Shown: positions 28,843-61,661 of the stretch, piece by piece | How positions within the stretch are numbered: position 1 is the first letter of the stretch | Layout: each line of letters starts with the position of its first letter | Source: Actinomucor elegans | Lineage: Eukaryota > Mucoromycota > Mucoromycetes > Mucorales > Mucoraceae | DNA: 64,000 nucleotides | Direction of reading: 5' to 3' | Assembly: GCA_026027325.1 (NCBI GenBank) | Contig: JAMSLZ010000016.1 | Location: 1 to 64,000, forward strand | Translations under genes and position numbers: made by a program | Notes under the pieces: generated by a model | Told to the model about the DNA's origin: nothing | The model's database searches: none | The model's input: the letters and a program-made list of their open reading frames with translations, nothing else

Positions 28843-29721
28843 TTAATCTTTCAAAAAGTTTTTCCAAATATTATATTCTCTATTTTTTTTTCTCCATTGA
28901 TATTCCCTGAGATATAGAATTATGTCTTTCTTGTTTCTATTTCTAGGTATAATACTTTGTTTTAATCCATTCCATGTTCCTTCTATGGTATTTGTATGAA
29001 TTCCTGTTATAGGATCTTTAAAATGTTTTTTATGATTTACTGTTTTATGTTTATACCCAATTTTATTTAAATCATTATAACCTTTCCAACAATCTGTGTA
29101 TATAGTTGTACCTTTCTTAATATACTTACTAATTATTTGATTAATATTCTCTATATTTCTTTCTTCAATAGGTTCTAAAAATACTTTTTTATTTTCATTT
29201 GTAACCTTATTCTTTAATCTACTTCTTTGTATTCCACCAATAACCCAAGCACCTTCAACTTTATGTCCCTTGTTATATTTTCTTTTTGCAATTTTAGTTT
29301 CATCAATTTCTACAATTTCATTTCTTCCACCTATTTTATTACTTGGTTTAATAAGTTGTTTATTCTTAATGTATTTTCTGAAAATTTTATTATATCTACT
29401 TACTGTATTTTTATCAATTTGTAAACTTGAGGATATAAAAGATGAGGGTGCTTTTCCTAAAAATAAATACAATATGTGTAACTGGATATTTAACGGTAAT
29501 CTTAATTTACTAAATATTGTTCCTTTCAATGGTGATATAGCTTTTCTACATTTATAATATTTACAAACATACAATTTTTTTTTCAAATTTAATTTCATAT
29601 CATGTCCACATTCATTACATTTTTCAATCTTATTCACATAATTATTTTTAATTAAATATTCCAATGCATCATCTTCATTATCGAATATATGCTTCAAACT
29701 TTTATAAGATTCTATAAACAT
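28843..29721 (-). CDS. Merlin-type DDE transposase (ISXO2-like), copy 1
   Basis: 292 residues from ATG 29721 (MFIESYKSLKHIF). N-terminal zinc ribbon CNECGH...CKYYKCRKAISPLKGTIF, then an HTH-like segment, then the ISXO2-type DDE core: Asp in IVEIDETKIAKRKYNKGH, Asp in TIYTDCWKGY, Glu in HTNTIEGTWNGLK. The length is normal for the family. The same protein is encoded at 52810-53688, and a diverged relative at 58726-59607. Intact and probably active. Strong AT bias in codon use. Confidence 0.93.
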   Translation of the reverse strand: MFIESYKSLKHIFDNEDDALEYLIKNNYVNKIEKCNECGHDMKLNLKKKLYVCKYYKCRKAISPLKGTIFSKLRLPLNIQLHILYLFLGKAPSSFISSSLQIDKNTVSRYNKIFRKYIKNKQLIKPSNKIGGRNEIVEIDETKIAKRKYNKGHKVEGAWVIGGIQRSRLKNKVTNENKKVFLEPIEERNIENINQIISKYIKKGTTIYTDCWKGYNDLNKIGYKHKTVNHKKHFKDPITGIHTNTIEGTWNGLKQSIIPRNRNKKDIILYLREYQWRKKNREYNIWKNFLKD

Positions 29722-43115: not shown

Positions 43116-43491
43116 TATTGTGACATTTCAGTATCGCTATCACCAGAGATGTCTTTACCAGAGCGACGGAAGGCAAAAGCAGCCTTCTTAGGATCTTGTT
43201 CAGCAAGCCGGCGACGAGCATCCACCATGACATGGTCAAGAGTTTCATCATCCATCCATCCTTTCTCAACAAAGGAGCGGCCAACAGAGGAGACAAGCAA
43301 GGGACGTACAAAAGACAAGGTATTGATGCATCGAGAATGGACAATCTTGGCCATTTCATTAGCCCTAGCATCCAATGAAAGAGAGTCATAGCGAGGATCA
43401 GCTAAATGGGAAGGGTCCAAAGGATCAAAATCCTTGATGAATTCGGCTTCGGCAATAGTCATAAGCTCAGTGAACCTGTCTACATACTGAG

Positions 43492-43913
43492 GAGGTCATA
43501 CAGATACTCGCAATTGTTGTACAATTACTCGTACAGGTTCTGGGTTAGTGGATGACCGGGTGCAATAGAATGTGGTTATACAATATGTCTCCGGCATTCC
43601 AAATATTTCTAGCCGTTTTAAAAATTGGAAATAGCCATTTAAATGGGTACACATATCCAGAGAACATCACAGCAGCCAAAAATATGCCCATGAGTAAATA
43701 CCTAAGGTCATCCACTAACCCAGAACCTGTACGAGTAATTGTACAACAATTGCGAGTATCTGTATGACCTCCTAGTGGGATATCTCACCACACACTGGTA
43801 GACATACGTTCCATAGCAAGGTAGTAGAGAGGGGGGGGGCCAAAAGGGATGATCTTGTCCAGAGACCTGAATAGTTTCAGCCCCCCTGGGAATGGAAACT
43901 AAGGAGCCTAAGG
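43492..43913 (+). repeat. Left terminal repeat of element A (palindrome with 148-bp loop)
   Basis: The outer unit is 43492-43771: arms 43492-43557 and 43706-43771 are perfect inverted copies (GAGGTCATACAGATACTCGC at the tip), loop 43558-43705. The inner part 43772-43913 (TAGTGGGATATCTCACC... to CCTAAGG, with a run of nine G) is the inverted copy of 49735-49876. Within the loop a CCATTTAAATGG palindrome and a TTCCAA/TTGGAA pair could form side arms. Confidence 0.9.
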
Positions 43914-43992
43914 CTACACTGTAGGACTGGGAGTGAACAACAGCATTTGGTAGCATACAACTCCTATTATACTACAGCATTCTTAAATAAAC

Positions 43993-45402
43993 ATGTTTCC
44001 GAAAGAAATAGTAGATGCGTTTACGTTGCTTATGGCGACTTACTGGCAGTTTCTTTCTAAAGATTGGCCAGTGTTGGAAAAGACTAAGTATCACCGGTCT
44101 GAGGTTAAGCCTGTAAAAGATATCCAGCATGTAAAAACTTATGTGTTGGAGCATCTTGGCTACATACCTGTTTTTTTCTTTCTCGTAGAGCTGTTTGCAA
44201 ACCAAGAATATCCTGGTCCATATTCCAACGTGGACAAAGGATTGTTGATAATCTACCAGCTTCTTACCGGTTGTTCTATTGCGCATATGGCACGTTTCAT
44301 CCCTTCTAGTAGCTACCATGCTATTTACAATGCCTTTTATACAAAATACGGAGAGGAGCTGAATACCTGTTTGGACTATTGCCTACGAAAGATGTTCTCC
44401 TCAACAAAGCTGCGAATTATGTGTGCTCTTCACCGAAACCCTGAAGATTTTAAGCATGTTACCTTGATGATAGATGGACATGATTCTAGAGCAACATATA
44501 TCAACGCTGCAGATCATGCCATGTTCTATTCGTATAAGCTTAAGAAGTCTGGCTTCCGAACACAAGTATGTACAGATGTTAATGGGATGGTGTTGTTTGT
44601 CTCCGATGCGGCACCATGTTCAGATAACAACGATGGGTCTATGCTTGCTGATATGCGGTTGAAGAAGAAGATTAGTAAGTACGATTGTGTTGTCGTTGAT
44701 GGTGGATACACTACTTTTATAGATCGTATTGTAGCAAATAATCGTCACCTGGATCGCCATAATTTTGTATTCCCTATCCGTAAGTCTCGAGGAGTGGGTC
44801 TGAAACAAGAAGAAGTTAATTACAACTCCATTCTTGGAAGCTTTCGTTCCTCGATAGAAGCAACGTTTGGAGAGATTGGAACCTTATTTCAACGATTCAA
44901 CGGTAAAGGCGTTATTCGAGTTACCGAGATGGAGACATTCACGGTACAGTTCAAGCTTGCATGTCTTCTTGCAAACATCAAGAAGTTTGTTAACATTGGG
45001 TGTGTTTCTAGCTCTGAACAACATACTTTTTGGATGCAGCCTAACTTCGACTTTCCAAATGGCAGCAGTAAGAATGTCTATGACGTAGTAAGTACCCTTA
45101 CAATTGCAGAAAAGTCCCAAGATGCTGAGATGGTAAAAGAAATACAGCAGCAGTTTCTCTCTTTGGGGGTGAACGAAGATAATGGCTCTGATGACGAACC
45201 CATCGACGAGGACTTACCACAAGGACACTACGAGGTTGAGGCCATTGTTGGGCATCGTGGACCAAAGCATCGTAGAGAGTATTTGGTTAGGTGGGTAGGC
45301 TATGATGAGAGTAGCAATAGTTGGCTTTCTCCTAACAACTTCGACGACTCTGATATTATTATCGAGTATGAGAAAGACGTTAGAAGAAGGCGGAAGAAGT
45401 AG
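43993..45402 (+). CDS. DDE transposase with C-terminal chromodomain (element A)
   Basis: 469 residues, ATG 43993. Catalytic residues by motif: Asp161 (MIDGHDSR), Asp236 (VVDGGYTT), Glu289 (FRSSIEATFGEIG). The upstream YPGPYSNVDKGLLIIYQLL block is shared with the other two family members. Residues about 410-460 form the chromodomain (HYEVEAIVGHR...YLVRWVGYDESSNSWLSPNNF) with the aromatic cage positions partly kept. It resembles Harbinger/IS5-type enzymes in its DG and DGGY motifs, but those families usually lack chromodomains and use a separate Myb-like partner. Its codon use is balanced, unlike the very AT-rich relatives B and C. The frame is intact. Confidence 0.85.
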   Translation: MFPKEIVDAFTLLMATYWQFLSKDWPVLEKTKYHRSEVKPVKDIQHVKTYVLEHLGYIPVFFFLVELFANQEYPGPYSNVDKGLLIIYQLLTGCSIAHMARFIPSSSYHAIYNAFYTKYGEELNTCLDYCLRKMFSSTKLRIMCALHRNPEDFKHVTLMIDGHDSRATYINAADHAMFYSYKLKKSGFRTQVCTDVNGMVLFVSDAAPCSDNNDGSMLADMRLKKKISKYDCVVVDGGYTTFIDRIVANNRHLDRHNFVFPIRKSRGVGLKQEEVNYNSILGSFRSSIEATFGEIGTLFQRFNGKGVIRVTEMETFTVQFKLACLLANIKKFVNIGCVSSSEQHTFWMQPNFDFPNGSSKNVYDVVSTLTIAEKSQDAEMVKEIQQQFLSLGVNEDNGSDDEPIDEDLPQGHYEVEAIVGHRGPKHRREYLVRWVGYDESSNSWLSPNNFDDSDIIIEYEKDVRRRRKK

Positions 45403-46934
45403 GTTCCACAAGGGGATGTTTTTTAAAACTTGTTAAAATATATGGAATATTTAAGCCTTTTAAAGCACATGGTAGCATATTCTAAGCATATACTACACAA
45501 TGCCCCTTAGTAAAATCTTTATAGATTACAACCAATACCTTAGTAATATCTATGGTGTCGATTACACTTGTGGTAGCGCGACGAGAGAACGTGTGGGCTG
45601 GGATTATGTTAGCGCAGTATTCTGCGACAGCATTGTCTTCTGGTGTGCTGTACATTGGGAACAAGAGAAGCTAAGTTCTGCTGTAGGAATGTACATGAGC
45701 ATTCTTCGGCTTCTTCTATCCCGTCACCTACAAGTGGAGCAGTTCAAGCTCTTTTACACTGGTAGGGGTAAATGGCATGCTGGTGAAGATAAACTTGTCA
45801 ACGACATCCAACAAAGGGAGGCAAAAGAATCAGGTATTAGCTGGGATAAATACCAGCCAGGCTATATATCGCTGAGAGTTTCGTTTGAGAATATCAGCTA
45901 TGGGGAACTGTGGCCAAAGCTTAAGAAGATATGCTGTAAGGTTGCAAAGAATTATATCCTTTTACATGACTTGGATATAAGCATCGACTGCGCCTACATA
46001 TCAACACGCGATATTATTAAGGAGTACATTACTTCTAATGGCGTAGAAGATAAAGATATTGTCAACGATCGTCACTCAGTCGGTGATAACTGCTTATCAT
46101 GGAGGCAGCATGATAGTTCTAGTGCTAAGATACCCTTACGAATAAAGATCTATAACAAGTTTGTCCAAATGCTTGAAAGCCGTGAATTAAGGTCTTTAAT
46201 CGGCTCCCAATTGCACCACTTGGTTTCTAACCCTGACAAAGATTTTCAAGAGCGCCTTAATAAGTATCGTGGTAATGGTATGACCAGAATAGAAATTACG
46301 TTTTATAACACCCAACTCAAGAAGGAAAGCTATTATACCAAAACTATGTCTAGGGTCCTTGAGTTCCTTGATAATTGTCCAACATACAAGGTCAGCTTCG
46401 ACAGACAATGGAAGCAACTAGCTAAGAACCTTACGCAAATGGCAGCTATATATGTTCCCAAAACAAAGACTTTCGCTTACTGCCATTGGTGGAACTCCCT
46501 TACCAAGCGAATGCAAGGCATAATTCATACAAAAGTACCAGAAGAGTACGTAATGCTCCATCTTGCAAACTTTAGCTTTAACGATAGGCCCATCCACTAT
46601 CTGGTAGTTAAGTTTGAGAAGAATAGTCATGAATATAAGATACTCGAAGACAGCATATATCGTCGTGAAGAAGGATGTTCTGCCATCACGTTGGTTCCAG
46701 GGATATCTAACTCCTTAACACCCTATAGAAAGGATTTAACCAACAAAGCAGCTTCTTTTGGTGATTTAGGGATTTGTTCTTTCCGCAACATCACCCTCGA
46801 ATGGCCAAAAAGTAGACTGCGACCTGAAAGAGGAGATAAACTTGCGACCATCAGGTTGGCCAAGGAGACACATGATGATAAACTATTACAGCATCTAGAT
46901 CCCTTCCCAGTGTCTGGAGCTAAACCAGATTATT

Positions 46935-47155
46935 GAAGAACATTTAGTATTACAGAAATATGTTCAAAATAGTACAATATATAAAAAAATTAGGAAATAA
47001 TAGATTTTTTTGAATACAAATAATAATATAAATAAATTTTATTCTAAAATAGAACAAGTAACCAACATTTTATTTATGGATAAAAAGGCAACATTATATT
47101 TATGCCTTGATTTTTTAGGAAAGTTAAAAATATTAAGTAGTTGTAAATGTTTATC
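46935..47155 (+). repeat. Left direct repeat of element B
   Basis: 221 bp, GAAGAACATTTAG to AAATGTTTATC, same orientation as 49218-49438. It contains an AAAAAGGCA...TGCCTTGATTTTT stem. Confidence 0.9.
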
Positions 47156-47310
47156 TTGTCCTATTTTTAGACTTCCATTGCGTTTAATCACATTGAGAAA
47201 TCTAAAAACAACTTCCTTGGCATCTAATTCTTGGCATGATATTTTGGAAAATATAAAAGTATCTATAATATTTGAGAATTATTTTTAAAATAACATCAAT
47301 ATTATATTTA

Positions 47311-47679
47311 ATGGAAAAAATCTATTATTATGCTGTGGTTTTAACTCTAAATCCTGAAAAAAAAGATGTCAAGAATAAATCATCCGAAATATTAAACAAG
47401 AAAATACTGCAATGGGTTGGAAATATAAAAAATATTGATAAAATTTTATATAGTGGTCCTTTCTATGATGTTGGTGAAAACAATACAAATATCCATGCCA
47501 ATTTAGTGATAAAAACAATTTTAGATGATAACGAAAAAGTTAGAAATGAATATTTCAAATCCTGGTGTTTAAGAAAAGGATATGTTAGTATTAAAGAAAT
47601 TTATAATTTTAAATCATGGTTAGATTATGCAAAAAGAAATCATAAGTTCTTGGAAAATATAGAAAATATTAAAAATTGA
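47311..47679 (+). CDS. Small protein of element B with HUH-endonuclease-like motifs (tentative)
   Basis: 122 residues from ATG 47311. The motif order recalls rolling-circle Rep domains: a strand YYYAVVLTLNP near the N terminus (compare motif I), NIHANLVIKT in the middle (compare the H-x-H motif, but the second His is Asn), and SIKEIYNFKSWLDYAKRN near the end (a Tyr/Lys segment like motif III). The size fits a lone HUH domain. The missing second His and the short similarity mean this may be coincidence. It lies 90 bp upstream of the transposase. Element A has a Rep-like partner in addition to its transposase, which makes the idea worth testing. Confidence 0.35.
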   Translation: MEKIYYYAVVLTLNPEKKDVKNKSSEILNKKILQWVGNIKNIDKILYSGPFYDVGENNTNIHANLVIKTILDDNEKVRNEYFKSWCLRKGYVSIKEIYNFKSWLDYAKRNHKFLENIENIKN

Positions 47680-47769
47680 ATTTTCATATATAAATAAAAG
47701 TTTATTAAATATAGAAAATATTAAAAATTGAATTTCTCTTTATATAAAAATACATCATTTTATTTGTTT

Positions 47770-49206
47770 ATGAACACTCATATAGACTTATTAATTGAAA
47801 ATGAATACAGAAATATTTACAATAGGTATTGGAAATTTATGAAAAATGAATATATATATAAAGTTGAATTGAAATATCATAGATCTAAAATAACGAGTAT
47901 ACCAAATATTGATAGAATTAAAAAAAATATATATATTAAATTAGGAAGTATTGCTCCATTTGTATTTTTGACAGATTTATGTAACAATATAAAACTACCA
48001 GGTCCATATATAACAGCAGATAAAGTATTGATATTATTAGAACATTTATTAAATGGAAAATCTATAAATGAAATGGAAATGTATATTCCATCTACTAGTT
48101 TTTATAAATTATATCAATCATTATATATAAATAATTATGATTTATTGGAAAAATGGATAAATAATAAATTAGAAAAATGTTTTTCTACACATACATTGAG
48201 ATTACTTTGTGCTAAGAAATTTAATCCAATGATGTTAGATAATGTAACATTACTAATTGATGGTCACCATAATCGTATAACATATCAAGATATTAATCTA
48301 GATAAAAAAGAGTTATTCTCGTATAAATTAAAAAGAAATGGATTAAATACACAATTTATTATAGATATTAATAGAATATGTGTTTATATATCTGATTCCT
48401 TACCTTGTAGAAATAATACTGATGATAAAATGCTTTTAGACATAAATATCAATAAGTTTTATAATGAAATAGATTGTATATGTTTTGATGGATTATATGA
48501 AAACACAGTAAAAGAATTTATAGAAAAATTTAGTAATATTGGATTTAATATATCCTTGAAAAATTTTTGCTATCCTATAAAAAAAGATAAAGGAGTTGAA
48601 TTAACCATAGATGAAAAAAAATTCAATGAAGAATTAGGTGGATTAAGGTCAAAAATAGAAAAATATTTTGCAGAATTAGGTAGTATTTTTAAAAGATTTA
48701 GTGGACAAAATAAGATTAGAATAACAGATAATAAGACATATAATATACAGCTAAAATTAGCAATAGTATTACTGAACATAAAATATTTTACAGAGTTATT
48801 TGGAATTGAAGAAAATGCCCATTACAACAAATGGCTAAATGATAATTTTGATTATTATTATAAAAATAATATTGAAATGAATAAAGAAGTAACATTAAAA
48901 ACACAATATAAAATAGAAAATATCGTTGATATAAAATCATTACAAAATCAATTTTTAAATAATTTAAATATAAATGAAGTGAATATAGATATTATGGATC
49001 AAATGGAGGAAGATATCACTAGTAATAATGATCAAAATATATATGAAATACAATATATAATTAAACACAAAAAAGTAAAGAACTTATATGAATATTTTGT
49101 AAAATGGAAAAAGTATGGTAAAGAACATAATTCATGGGTAAAAGAAAAAGATTTTACATCACATGATACTATTTTGAATTATTGGAAATCAATAGAAAAT
49201 AATTAA
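47770..49206 (+). CDS. DDE transposase with C-terminal chromodomain (element B)
   Basis: 478 residues from the first ATG (47770, MNTHIDLLIENEYRN). Catalytic motifs: Asp in LLIDGHHNRITY, Asp in CICFDGLYENT (DGLY instead of DGGY), Glu in GGLRSKIEKYFAELG. The LPGPYITADKVLILLEHLL block is shared with elements A and C. Chromodomain at the end (IYEIQYIIKHKKVKNLYEYF then VKWKKYGKEHNSW). Extremely AT-rich codon use. The frame is intact. Confidence 0.84.
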   Translation: MNTHIDLLIENEYRNIYNRYWKFMKNEYIYKVELKYHRSKITSIPNIDRIKKNIYIKLGSIAPFVFLTDLCNNIKLPGPYITADKVLILLEHLLNGKSINEMEMYIPSTSFYKLYQSLYINNYDLLEKWINNKLEKCFSTHTLRLLCAKKFNPMMLDNVTLLIDGHHNRITYQDINLDKKELFSYKLKRNGLNTQFIIDINRICVYISDSLPCRNNTDDKMLLDININKFYNEIDCICFDGLYENTVKEFIEKFSNIGFNISLKNFCYPIKKDKGVELTIDEKKFNEELGGLRSKIEKYFAELGSIFKRFSGQNKIRITDNKTYNIQLKLAIVLLNIKYFTELFGIEENAHYNKWLNDNFDYYYKNNIEMNKEVTLKTQYKIENIVDIKSLQNQFLNNLNINEVNIDIMDQMEEDITSNNDQNIYEIQYIIKHKKVKNLYEYFVKWKKYGKEHNSWVKEKDFTSHDTILNYWKSIENN

Positions 49207-49217
49207 TCAATTAATAA

Positions 49218-49438
49218 GAAGAACATTTAGTATTACAGAAATATGTTCAAAATAGTACAATATATAAAAAAATTAGGAAATAATAGATTTTTTTGAATAC
49301 AAATAATAATATAAATAAATTTTATTCTAAAATAGAACAAGTAACCAACATTTTATTTATGGATAAAAAGGCAACATTATATTTATGCCTTGATTTTTTA
49401 GGAAAGTTAAAAATATTAAGTAGTTGTAAATGTTTATC
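49218..49438 (+). repeat. Right direct repeat of element B
   Basis: 221 bp, direct copy of 46935-47155, ending at the TATT duplication in the Rep-like gene. Confidence 0.9.
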
Positions 49439-49734
49439 TATTCTTTCATGAAAGTAGGTGTGAAGTACCAAGTAACCGGATATGGTTATGGTACATTCCG
49501 AAGTAAGAACTATCTCCACTTACGGCTGTCCAATGGTACCTCAGTCCGTTGCAGTCCAGGTTTAAAACAAGTTGTAGAGAAGCAACTAGAGAAGCATACC
49601 TTGTTCTATGTTTGTCTAATTCGAGTAAAGAAAGTACGTGGTGTTCGTGATGTAGAATGCGAGATCACCAACGTATGAGTACTTGTTTTTTAAAAGCTTC
49701 GCCCAACTGTCAACACATGTTACTCGTACTACAA

Positions 49735-50156
49735 CCTTAGGCTCCTTAGTTTCCATTCCCAGGGGGGCTGAAACTATTCAGGTCTCTGGACAAGATCATC
49801 CCTTTTGGCCCCCCCCCTCTCTACTACCTTGCTATGGAACGTATGTCTACCAGTGTGTGGTGAGATATCCCACTAGGAGGTCATACAGATACTCGCAATT
49901 GTTGTACAATTACTCGTACAGGTTCTGGGTTAGTGGATGACCGGGTGCAATAGAATGTGGTTATACAATATGTCTCCGGCATTCCAAATATTTCTAGCCG
50001 TTTTAAAAATTGGAAATAGCCATTTAAATGGGTACACATATCCAGAGAACATCACAGCAGCCAAAAATATGCCCATGAGTAAATACCTAAGGTCATCCAC
50101 TAACCCAGAACCTGTACGAGTAATTGTACAACAATTGCGAGTATCTGTATGACCTC
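49735..50156 (+). repeat. Right terminal repeat of element A
   Basis: The inner part 49735-49876 is the reverse complement of 43772-43913, including nine C opposite the nine G. The outer unit 49877-50156 has arms 49877-49942 and 50091-50156 and loop 49943-50090. The loop reads in the same direction as the left loop, so relative to its own end it is inverted. Confidence 0.9.
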
Positions 50157-51397
50157 CTGAGTATGTAACAAGATACCAATGACACCAGAGGCGGGGAAAC
50201 AGACATCAATCACACGGCCAGTGTCAACACCAGCACGACGGAGACGGGACCGGACTTCCAAACGGTCAAACTTGCGAGAGCGACCAAGATACACGTAGGT
50301 AAAACCTTGTGGGCCCTGGGCTTCTGCGGTCTTGAACACACGGGCTGCAGCAATGCGTTTCTTCAGCGAAACAGAACCAGAATTCTTACTCTTTTGGCGA
50401 GTAGGAGCAGCGGCAACAGAAGCAAATGTGGGTTTAGCCACTTTTACTTCAGGGGAGACTTGAGAATTAACCAATGGCTGATCAACATTGGCAATGGGAT
50501 TCGAGATTTTGGACATGAGCTTTGAGATCTCGGTACGTAATTGCTGGTTTTCATCAGCAAGGGCTTGTTTTTCTGACTGTAAGGTTTGAATTGTGTCTTT
50601 CAGAGCTTGAAGCTCTTGAAAAACAGTTTGGTGTTGTTGCACTTGTTGAACGACAGAAAAGACCATTTGCTGCAATTGCATTTGGTCAATTAGGCCAGAT
50701 GGCTCAGAGGCATGTTGAACATTGGACATTTCGAAATGGAGAAAATTTCAAGATGTCGAAAACTTGATGAAATGTTCTGAAAAAAAAACTGCAGATAGTA
50801 CTCGGCGAGGCGAAGATGGATGTGCAATTTTTATAGATGGATGTATAGTAGTTGTTGAGATATTCGGCTTTGAAAAAGTGGATTTTTGAAAAAAGTTTTC
50901 AAAAGCGAAAGAAGAGTGTGGGGATGTAGCTCAGTTTAAAGATTTTGTTTATTGATAGTATTCTATATGCATTCGCTCTATGGAGCATTTAGTTGCAATA
51001 CCAGGAGCAAAGCAGCAAAAAGTCTATATTATAGGTTGTACAATAAATCCAAAGCTCCTAATGGAGGTTTAGACCAAACTATAAAAAGACAACAAAAAAC
51101 TACGGGAAAGAAAAGAAGAACATAAAAAAGATGAAAGATGAGAAGCAGCAGAAGATTGGGGGTGGGAACTGTTCACATGGGGAACACCTCGACAGACACA
51201 CCGCAGCCAAACCAAAAGACATACACCAACATCCGGGAATCCACAAAAAAAGCAAGAAAAAAAGGAGAGAACTAAGAAGCAAAAGCAAACAGCGTTGGAA
51301 AGGGTACTAGGACCAGAAGAAAAGAAAGATCAAGAGAGAGAGGGAGAGAGAAAAAGGAAAACGACTAAAGCGGCAAGCAAGAGAAAAAACGGGGGAA

Positions 51398-52809: not shown

Positions 52810-53688
52810 ATGTTTATAGAATCTTATAAAAGTTTGAAGCATATATTCGATAATGAAGATGATGCATTGGAATATTTAATTAAAAATAATTATGTGAATA
52901 AGATTGAAAAATGTAATGAATGTGGACATGATATGAAATTAAATTTGAAAAAAAAATTGTATGTTTGTAAATATTATAAATGTAGAAAAGCTATATCACC
53001 ATTGAAAGGAACAATATTTAGTAAATTAAGATTACCGTTAAATATCCAGTTACACATATTGTATTTATTTTTAGGAAAAGCACCCTCATCTTTTATATCC
53101 TCAAGTTTACAAATTGATAAAAATACAGTAAGTAGATATAATAAAATTTTCAGAAAATACATTAAGAATAAACAACTTATTAAACCAAGTAATAAAATAG
53201 GTGGAAGAAATGAAATTGTAGAAATTGATGAAACTAAAATTGCAAAAAGAAAATATAACAAGGGACATAAAGTTGAAGGTGCTTGGGTTATTGGTGGAAT
53301 ACAAAGAAGTAGATTAAAGAATAAGGTTACAAATGAAAATAAAAAAGTATTTTTAGAACCTATTGAAGAAAGAAATATAGAGAATATTAATCAAATAATT
53401 AGTAAGTATATTAAGAAAGGTACAACTATATACACAGATTGTTGGAAAGGTTATAATGATTTAAATAAAATTGGGTATAAACATAAAACAGTAAATCATA
53501 AAAAACATTTTAAAGATCCTATAACAGGAATTCATACAAATACCATAGAAGGAACATGGAATGGATTAAAACAAAGTATTATACCTAGAAATAGAAACAA
53601 GAAAGACATAATTCTATATCTCAGGGAATATCAATGGAGAAAAAAAAATAGAGAATATAATATTTGGAAAAACTTTTTGAAAGATTAA
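52810..53688 (+). CDS. Merlin-type DDE transposase (ISXO2-like), copy 2
   Basis: 292 residues, identical in translation to 28843-29721. Zinc ribbon, then the DDE core with EIDETKI, YTDCWKGY and NTIEGTWNGLK. Identity between the two copies implies very recent movement. Confidence 0.94.
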   Translation: MFIESYKSLKHIFDNEDDALEYLIKNNYVNKIEKCNECGHDMKLNLKKKLYVCKYYKCRKAISPLKGTIFSKLRLPLNIQLHILYLFLGKAPSSFISSSLQIDKNTVSRYNKIFRKYIKNKQLIKPSNKIGGRNEIVEIDETKIAKRKYNKGHKVEGAWVIGGIQRSRLKNKVTNENKKVFLEPIEERNIENINQIISKYIKKGTTIYTDCWKGYNDLNKIGYKHKTVNHKKHFKDPITGIHTNTIEGTWNGLKQSIIPRNRNKKDIILYLREYQWRKKNREYNIWKNFLKD

Positions 53689-60716: not shown

Positions 60717-61661
60717 TTATTGTGACATTTCAGTATCGCTATCACCAGAGATGTCTTTACCAGAGCGACGGAAGGCAAAAGCAGCCTTCTTAGGATCTTG
60801 TTCAGCAAGCCGGCGACGAGCATCCACCATGACATGGTCAAGAGTTTCATCATCCATCCATCCTTTCTCAACAAAGGAGCGACCAACAGAGGAGACGAGC
60901 AAGGGACGTACAAAGGACAATGTATTGATGCATCGAGAGTGAACGATTTTGGCCATTTCATTAGCCCTAGCATCCAGTGAAAGAGAGTCATAGCGTGGAT
61001 CAGCTAAATGGGCAGGGTCCAACGGATCAAAATCCTTGATAAATTCGGCTTCGGCAATAGTCATAAGCTCAGTGAACCTGTCTACATACTGTGTATGTAA
61101 CAAGATACCAATGACACCAGAGGCGGGGAAACAGACATCAATCACACGGCCAGTGTCAACACCAGCACGACGGAGACGGGACCGGACTTCCAAACGGTCA
61201 AACTTGCGAGAGCGACCAAGATACACGTAGGTAAAACCTTGTGGGCCCTGGGCTTCTGCGGTCTTGAACACACGGGCTGCAGCAATGCGTTTCTTCAGCG
61301 AAACAGAACCAGAATTCTTACTCTTTTGGCGAGTAGGAGCAGCGGCAACAGAAGCAAATGTGGGTTTAGCCACTTTTACTTCAGGGGAGACTTGAGAATT
61401 AACCAATGGCTGATCAACATTGGCAATGGGATTCGAGATTTTGGACATGAGCTTTGAGATCTCGGTACGTAATTGCTGGTTTTCATCAGCAAGGGCTTGT
61501 TTTTCTGACTGTAAGGTTTGAATCGTGTCTTTCAAAGCTTGAAGCTCTTGGAAAACAGTTTGGTGTTGTTGCACTTGTTGAACGACAGAAAAGACCATTT
61601 GCTGCAATTGCATTTGGTCAATTAGGCCAGATGGCTCAGAGGCATGTTGAACATTGGACAT
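60717..61661 (-). CDS. LINE ORF1 (Gag-like RNA-binding protein)
   Basis: 314 residues from ATG 61661 (MSNVQHASEPSGLIDQ). Coiled coil with clear heptads (LQALKDTIQTLQSEKQAL), a basic linker (SVSLKKRIAAARVF), the conserved core GPQGFTYVYLGRSRKFDRLE, then VRSRLRRAGVDTGRVIDVCF and FIKDFDPLDPAHLADPRYDS, and an acidic end DSDTEMSQ. The stop overlaps the ORF2 start (TAATG at 60715-60719). Expected to trimerise through the coiled coil and coat LINE RNA. No zinc knuckle is visible. This is the only uninterrupted ORF1 of the autonomous type in the window. Confidence 0.92.
   Translation of the reverse strand: MSNVQHASEPSGLIDQMQLQQMVFSVVQQVQQHQTVFQELQALKDTIQTLQSEKQALADENQQLRTEISKLMSKISNPIANVDQPLVNSQVSPEVKVAKPTFASVAAAPTRQKSKNSGSVSLKKRIAAARVFKTAEAQGPQGFTYVYLGRSRKFDRLEVRSRLRRAGVDTGRVIDVCFPASGVIGILLHTQYVDRFTELMTIAEAEFIKDFDPLDPAHLADPRYDSLSLDARANEMAKIVHSRCINTLSFVRPLLVSSVGRSFVEKGWMDDETLDHVMVDARRRLAEQDPKKAAFAFRRSGKDISGDSDTEMSQ

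Follow-up and report, generated by a model that had tools for sequence, protein, structure and literature searches.

Can a DDE transposon residing in a fungal chromosome carry terminal hairpins that flip in the way of a parvovirus genome? The question is raised by element A of Actinomucor elegans, which lies within positions 1 to 64,000 of contig JAMSLZ010000016.1 (GenBank assembly GCA_026027325.1); this whole stretch of 64,000 nucleotides is called the window below. A first-pass annotation of the window had described the ends of element A as parvovirus-style hairpins, one in the flip and the other in the flop arrangement, as known from the inverted terminal repeats and rolling-hairpin terminal resolution of adeno-associated virus (AAV; PMC1131931). 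This anatomy and the polymorphism of the loops are real and unusual, and the terminal palindromes occur in two orientations among 17 ordinary copies of the element. In addition, element A has a second gene, REP, which had been overlooked and whose product resembles a replication nickase. We give about even chances to the explanation that the hairpins are processed, and their loops thereby flipped, at a stage before integration.

Anatomy of element A and orientation of its loops

Each end of element A comprises a hairpin unit (arm, loop and inverted arm) and an inner block. We denote the state of an end as L or R according to the direction of its loop relative to the inner block, and report states in the order DDE-gene end, tail end. 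In the window, the features are as follows (TSD, target-site duplication).

43491-50157, forward strand: element A, whole, 6667 bp here, with ends GGAGGTCAT...ATGACCTCC and a gap-free empty site at 60943-61242
43488-43490, no strand: left 3-bp TSD copy, TGA
43491-43772, forward: left hairpin unit, state L (arm 43491-43557, loop 43558-43705, inverted arm 43706-43772)
43773-43913, forward: left inner block (DDE-gene end)
43993-45402, forward: transposase, 469 aa, with DDE_Tnp_4 (PF13359, E 1e-11) and a C-terminal chromodomain (PF00385, E 5e-10)
45500-46934, forward: REP gene, first ~478 codons, its 3' end split off by a nested AT-rich element
49440-49678, forward: right TSD copy (ATT) of the nested element and the REP C-terminal remainder to the stop
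49735-49875, reverse: right inner block (REP-gene end), an inverted copy of 43773-43913
49876-50157, forward: right hairpin unit, state R, a direct copy of the left unit (arm 49876-49942, loop 49943-50090, inverted arm 50091-50157)
50158-50160, no strand: right 3-bp TSD copy, TGA

After trimming of the TSD, each end measures 423 bp, made up of a 282-bp unit (67-bp perfect arms and a 148-nt loop) and a 141-bp inner block, in close agreement with the 422-bp ends and 280-bp unit first described. Before trimming, the arms (43490-43557/43706-43773 and 49875-49942/50091-50158) are 100% complementary, with 148 nt between them. The untrimmed units at 43490-43773 and 49875-50158 form a 100% direct repeat, whereas the inner blocks lie inside a 100% inverted repeat (43706-43913 / 49735-49942), so the inner blocks are inverted and the loops read in the same direction, as the annotation had stated. 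Folded as single-stranded DNA, the unit reaches -95.6 kcal/mol, far beyond chance expectation (shuffled sequences have a mean of -25.2 and a standard deviation of 3.5). The 148-nt loop alone folds no better than its shuffles, and it thus has no clear sub-hairpins of the B/C type found in AAV.

Element A also has the hallmarks of DDE-type insertion. The transposase match to PF13359 is above the cut-off and DDE_Tnp_4 is its best profile; putative catalytic residues, chosen by eye, are D161, D236 and E289. Exact 3-bp TSDs flank 16 of the 18 copies that have both tips, the exceptions being L013 (TAA/ACT) and L019 (ACT/AAA), and their sequence varies, with none fixed; not counted in the 18 are L028, in which a nested element leaves the tips unmatched, and L029, with one incomplete tip. 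With its exact TSDs, insertion looks transposase-made, and the hairpin unit belongs inside the element. Within the window, the joined flanks of element A correspond to the empty site with no gap and 97.3% identity, and the open reading frame (ORF) interrupted by the element is identical in part to the uninterrupted ORF around 60943-61242; by our reading, it is ORF1 of a non-LTR retrotransposon. At all 42 ends found, the junction between unit and inner block is the same. All hairpin units have identical boundaries (GGAGGTCAT...ATGACCTCC), and the transposase end sequence is present both at the outer tip of a unit and at its inner-block junction.

The orientation of the loops was scored across the 36.5-Mb, 27-contig genome to which the window belongs. 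Full-length copies of the window transposase with 100% identity occur elsewhere in this genome; among the best 91 of 425 candidates, at least 13 are full-length with a score of 1091 bits or more. A pattern search for the loop allowing up to 2 mismatches gave 57 matches (28 forward, 29 reverse), 41 of them in element A copies (L013 shares one) and the other 16 in solo or broken units. For the inner block, 42 candidate places were obtained (the best 40 of the 42 were scored), which, after locus fetching and annotation, pair into 21 element A copies. Eight of the 21 are 2.4-kb forms, by their size before nested insertions, in which REP has been lost; intact copies without the nested AT-rich element, such as L011, are ~4.16 kb. 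Excluded from the ordinary copies are L013a, L013b, L017 and L028, the last having its right end joined to L040 via a nested AT-rich element, with unmatched tips (ATT/AGT). Retained are L019, which has no TSD, and L029, in which 23 nt of one outer arm are missing; the loops of both are whole. The 17 ordinary copies are distributed as follows, with LL found in none of them.

LR, 5 copies: window, L012, L016, L019, L029
RL, 5 copies: L009, L014/15, L018, L020/21, L022
RR, 7 copies: L010, L011, L023, L024/25, L026, L027, L030

The hairpin units are therefore direct in 10 of the 17 copies and inverted in seven, and the arrangement is not fixed; a fixed one would, according to the first-pass annotation, have refuted its idea. 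Loop state differs among copies that share 99.1-100% identity with the window copy in their DDE pieces. The only LL states belong to a snapback copy (L017) and to one half, the left, of a fused pair (L013).

The loops themselves are nearly invariant, with 100% identity in the best 40 of 62 candidates. Two copies carry private changes, each present in both loops of the element (A141G in L027 and T33C in L030), and the other element loops are identical. Of the five copies with the inner-block variant C70G, four (L011, L012, L023 and L026) have it in both inner blocks and one (L024/25) in a single inner block. Such variants argue that sequence passes from one end of an element to the other, by either replication or conversion. 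This does not happen in every event: in 12 of 21 copies the two ends have G-runs of unequal length beside the C70G site, and in L018 they are also unlike in a C-run, both of which speak against complete homogenization.

The snapback copy is palindromic, consisting of a hairpin, an inner block, DDE nucleotides 1-222, DDE nucleotides 250-1, an inner block and a hairpin. It has a TSD (ATA), and both its ends are in state L; layout and state are as would be expected if one end had been copied by fold-back. AAV is known to form snapback genomes (PMC8235507). The fused pair (L013, 612-8651) comprises two elements joined tail to tail with one shared hairpin. We considered and rejected a parvovirus-like dimeric replication intermediate as its origin, given that it lacks a TSD and that its outer flanks, TAA and ACT, lie in two different repeats. 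It is probably a chromosome rearrangement through recombination of hairpin units.

Hairpin units standing alone have a 3-bp TSD at 8 of 11 tested loci, a count that excludes the broken units L041 and L043 and takes the four-copy L037 group once. In that group (L037, L038, L039 and L042), the solo hairpin lies within a larger repeated segment, shares two loop changes and has no TSD, and possibly represents an older lineage of the unit.

REP, a predicted Rep_trans-like nickase

Intact REP is a protein of 556 aa (L011:2625-4295). A genome search with the 478-aa part present in the window gave 16 matches, eight of them full-length places, and all 16 lie inside element A copies. In databases, REP has 107 matches at E<=0.001, itself included. 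Among them, Mucoromycota are represented by Apophysomyces and Rhizomucor, and Mortierellomycota by Mortierella and Gryganskiella, the others being metagenomic or unnamed. A single predicted protein of Rhizomucor pusillus (P0087, 970 aa) contains both DDE_Tnp_4 and REP. Moreover, several REP and DDE matches have longest contigs of equal size (for example, 3383, 3585, 3607, 3698 and 3700 bases), which suggests linkage of the two genes. We also observe that, in 21 of the 104 REP matches with a contig size, the longest contig measures 3.3-3.75 kb, near the 3.6-kb core of element A between its hairpins, and short-read assemblies may break at hairpins.

The assignment of REP as a Rep-like nickase is likely correct, and it rests on its modelled structure and on its conserved residues. 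The structure model has a pLDDT of 93.7. In a Foldseek comparison with the PDB, the sole match at E<=0.001 is the Rep_trans initiator RepDE (4cwc, E 9e-4, probability 0.91); 4cwe and four 4cij chains follow at ranks 7-11, and TATA-binding protein (TBP) occupies ranks 5-6. Models of inovirus Rep proteins appear at ranks 3 and 13 against BFVD, and the REP homologue P0013 matches phrog_702, a 'replication protein', over residues 133-288 (E 1.6e-6). The Rep_trans catalytic domain and TBP have a common fold (PMC4797284), and the predicted catalytic fold of REP resembles it, with marginal scores. In Rep_trans enzymes, the catalytic order is D, D, Y with R/K at -2, K at +2 and Q/E at +5, and then E (PMC4797284). 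The REP family appears to fit this active site by motif and order: all 67 members have K216-x-Y218-x-K220-x-x-Q223 and the acidic residue D163, and the other acidic residues, D159 (65/67), D43 (65/67) and E265 (66/67), are nearly invariant.

Pfam gave no match to intact REP at E<=1, and no helicase domain was recognized in the protein; the Pfam matches listed include no Myb/SANT domain and, for either gene of element A, no His-Me finger nuclease. The Rep_trans profile PF02486 has no match in the A. elegans genome, while a control match was found in Bacillus subtilis, and it is not among the families listed (25 of 40) for the 67 REP family members. Against solved structures, sequence searches gave nothing at E<=1 with the 478-aa piece and nothing at E<=10 with a profile, and an NCBIfam scan gave nothing consistent. 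A tblastn search of phages and plasmids with P0013 returned no match at E<=5, and none of the 42 stretches in viral contigs that fit a pattern is a REP relative.

Compared with the Rep_trans set of RepDE, RepSTK1, MOBT and archaeal Rep-Arvir (PMC4797284, PMC6499999, PMC13107129), REP thus shares the predicted fold, the order of catalytic strands, a tyrosine flanked by K/R, K and Q, and three acidic residues. It differs in its length, in the missing PF02486 profile match and in its residence in a eukaryotic transposon. Rep_trans was apparently restricted to bacteria before the archaeal find (PMC13107129, 2026). Among the titles and abstract beginnings of open-access PMC papers listed in capped searches (in one, 15 of 3,998), none reports a fungal Rep_trans protein or a transposon with flip/flop hairpin ends. 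To our knowledge, no Rep_trans-type nickase is known from eukaryotes.

A proposed cycle and its alternatives

Several known systems resemble element A in part. The Rep protein of AAV is an HUH enzyme, and parvoviral Rep proteins combine HUH and superfamily 3 helicase domains. Like the genomes of AAV and other parvoviruses, element A has ends in which an arm-loop-arm palindrome is followed by a unique inner block, loops that vary in orientation at either end, a nicking-enzyme-like gene and a snapback form. Unlike AAV, it is an integrated DDE transposon with a 3-bp TSD, its loop lacks clear sub-hairpins, its nickase candidate is nearest to TBP-fold Rep_trans rather than HUH and has no recognized helicase domain, and the four end combinations are not equal, with LL missing from ordinary copies. 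Like PIF/Harbinger (PHIS) elements, it has a DDE_Tnp_4 transposase and a 3-bp TSD, although it differs from them in its chromodomain, in REP as the second gene where PHIS elements have one with a Myb/SANT domain, in its hairpin ends and in a TSD without fixed sequence, whereas Harbinger TSDs show a TWA-like preference. The animal Kolobok lineage KolobokP has direct units with termini of 11-18 bp and a His-Me finger nuclease, and its direct terminal repeats were described as 'Unlike any other DNA transposons' (PMC9587614). Element A resembles KolobokP in that a DDE transposase and an accessory nuclease or nuclease-like gene lie between two terminal units, which have inverted termini of their own, occur solo and may be mobile, and in that a circular intermediate is considered for both. 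The differences are the 67-bp arms, the variable loop orientation and the lack of a His-Me finger nuclease match; the best profile of the transposase is DDE_Tnp_4.

We propose that element A is a DDE_Tnp_4 and chromodomain transposon of early-diverging fungi (Mucoromycota/Mortierellomycota) with snap-back hairpin ends, a Rep_trans-like REP and the following cycle, a reading that we consider about as probable as its negation. The element would be excised or copied out of the chromosome, and a single-stranded or nicked unit would fold into the 67-bp hairpin. REP or the transposase would then nick at or near the hairpin, and copy-through would shift the hairpin to the other strand and reverse the loop, much as in parvoviral terminal resolution; the two ends would also exchange sequence in this stage. 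Because the end sequence is present at both edges of a unit, nicks there would free a self-folding strand of 282 nt, and re-ligation, an opposite-strand nick and copying would reverse the loop and regenerate a full end. Finally, the transposase would insert the product with a 3-bp stagger. In this reading, REP would be a nickase and act on the hairpin, flips would precede integration and there would be an extrachromosomal stage. An episomal, self-priming stage was suggested in the first-pass annotation; the Rep-like gene makes this idea better founded, and the Rep_trans-like protein and the snapback with its TSD make such a stage more plausible. More tentatively, and in our judgement doubtful as a complete picture, element A might be a transposon that, in its eukaryotic host, multiplies as an episome in the manner of a parvovirus or a rolling-circle plasmid, with a Rep_trans-type nickase resolving its hairpins by a rolling-hairpin or rolling-circle mode and a DDE transposase inserting the products, and so belong to a widespread early-diverging fungal lineage between transposon, plasmid and single-stranded DNA virus.

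Other explanations of the flips have to be weighed against hairpin processing before integration, and some observations count against it. Rolling-hairpin replication, as the annotation had pointed out, predicts all four end combinations, of which LR, RL and RR are found; the lack of LL in the 17 copies departs from an expectation of 25% (P 0.0075), and a default direct layout with single-end flips would give both RR and LL, where RR alone is observed. We give the missing LL low weight, since R is the commoner state (24 of 34 ends in these copies, P 0.024) and the independence of the two ends is not rejected (Fisher P 0.24, not significant). Hairpin-processing events on the chromosome without REP, or plain arm recombination, might also account for the flips. 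Chromosomal arm recombination is a serious rival: element A would be an ordinary cut-and-paste transposon, with no episome, whose loops flip after insertion via recombination or gene conversion between the 67-bp arms or with other units. We regard this as possible, though the odds seem to us to lie against it. The fused pair, with its shared hairpin and unmatched flanks, and L019, without a TSD, are consistent with such recombination; solo units with TSDs resemble solo LTRs (long terminal repeats), and the 57 loop matches offer many partners. However, near-identical elements differ in loop state while the solo segmental copies L037, L038, L039 and L042 (~1.5 kb, 99.3-100% identical) keep one orientation, as do L040 and L041, which speaks weakly against fast chromosomal flipping, as the independent comparisons are few. 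The private loop variants are likewise confined to one copy each despite the many donors, and the state of the snapback is as expected from copying one end.

Alternatively, the 282-bp unit could be a mobile miniature inverted-repeat transposable element (MITE) in a composite of the KolobokP kind, in which the gap left when the transposase excises it is repaired from another unit, in either orientation by virtue of the symmetric arms. The solo units with TSDs, the same end sequence bounding every unit, and cousin families with direct units, some of which stand apart from any listed DDE copy (see below), are in keeping with this mechanism, and excision of the LTDR (long terminal direct repeat) is reported for KolobokP, where ends without the unit are frequent in one family (PMC9587614). 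Such unit-less ends, the expected by-product, number 0 of 42 inner-block ends in element A, the nearest being L029, 23 nt short, and the mechanism by itself leaves the snapback and the conserved REP unexplained; we consider it unlikely. The annotation had allowed that the 280-bp unit might be an independent MITE that happened to insert twice, here near the ends of an older transposon. Solo units do exist, but the single unit/inner-block junction and the position of the TSD, which in 16 of 18 copies is external to the unit, make two chance insertions exceedingly improbable.

If true, the proposed cycle would join a DDE transposon with a rolling-circle-type nickase and viral-style hairpin ends; it might link cut-and-paste transposons to small replicons, and it would offer one answer to how cut-and-paste elements multiply. 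It would also add a eukaryotic case to a nickase class described as bacterial with one archaeal branch (PMC13107129). The copies in one genome record their own end states, which makes the mechanism directly testable. Even if the flips are due to recombination, REP and the direct, inverted and flipping cousins constitute a natural series for the evolution of transposon ends.

Related families and minor observations

Several cousin DDE_Tnp_4 families in this genome have terminal units of ~210-232 bp, and one of their members is inserted in element A of the window, where it interrupts REP.

46935-49439, forward: nested AT-rich cousin, with 222-bp terminal direct repeats (46935-47156 and 49218-49439) and TSD ATT
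47311-47679: small ORF p122 of the nested cousin, 122 aa
47728-49206: DDE_Tnp_4 and chromodomain gene of the nested cousin
L009 1904-4144 and 5462-7800, L051 1269-3368: further AT-rich DDE_Tnp_4 cousins, which, with the window copy, have 220-232-bp direct repeats that are 99.6-100% identical
L050 1518-1727 and 3120-3328: terminal repeats of family C

For the AT-rich family (AT) and family B, the best 40 of 101 and the best 40 of 111 unit candidates were scored, respectively, and the DDE places for comparison were chosen by score. Among these, the unit strand equals the gene strand in all units near a DDE copy (28/28 in AT, 31/31 in B), unit pairs are direct (8/8 and 12/12), and 12 of 40 and 9 of 40 units, respectively, lie away from any listed DDE copy. 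In family C, for which 28 of 28 candidates were scored, the 210-bp terminal repeats are inverted in 14 of 14 pairs, and in family D the one copy read (L051) has 221-bp direct repeats. Direct and inverted layouts thus coexist among related families, and among the four families with repeat ends in which more than one copy was scored, element A alone flips, while its three cousins keep one arrangement. The AT-rich, B and D families are closer to the KolobokP layout than is element A, and the AT-rich cousins resemble a fungal counterpart of it in another transposase type. A genome search with the REP part of the window gave no match in the cousin families; that the three families lacking such a match have a constant arrangement counts in favour of the proposed cycle.

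The p122 ORF has invariant LT, NxHxN and W-x-x-Y-x-K motifs and 62 matches in the genome. These motifs recall a small HUH Rep by eye, and the model is ferredoxin-like by strand order; among the 50 structure matches listed, there are Lrp/ACT, ribosomal S6 and similar proteins, and no HUH protein.

Two further insertions or gene pairs appear to represent separate elements. The DDE gene of the L022 copy contains a 285-bp insertion (L022 2226-2510), perhaps a separate MITE family, whose last 37 bases also start the right flank of L013. Elsewhere in the window, identical 292-aa ORFs occur in opposite orientation at 28843-29721 (reverse) and 52810-53688 (forward), each beside the same 312-aa ORF. 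These pairs have the appearance of a further transposon family that carries an accessory gene, perhaps an IS1595-like one.

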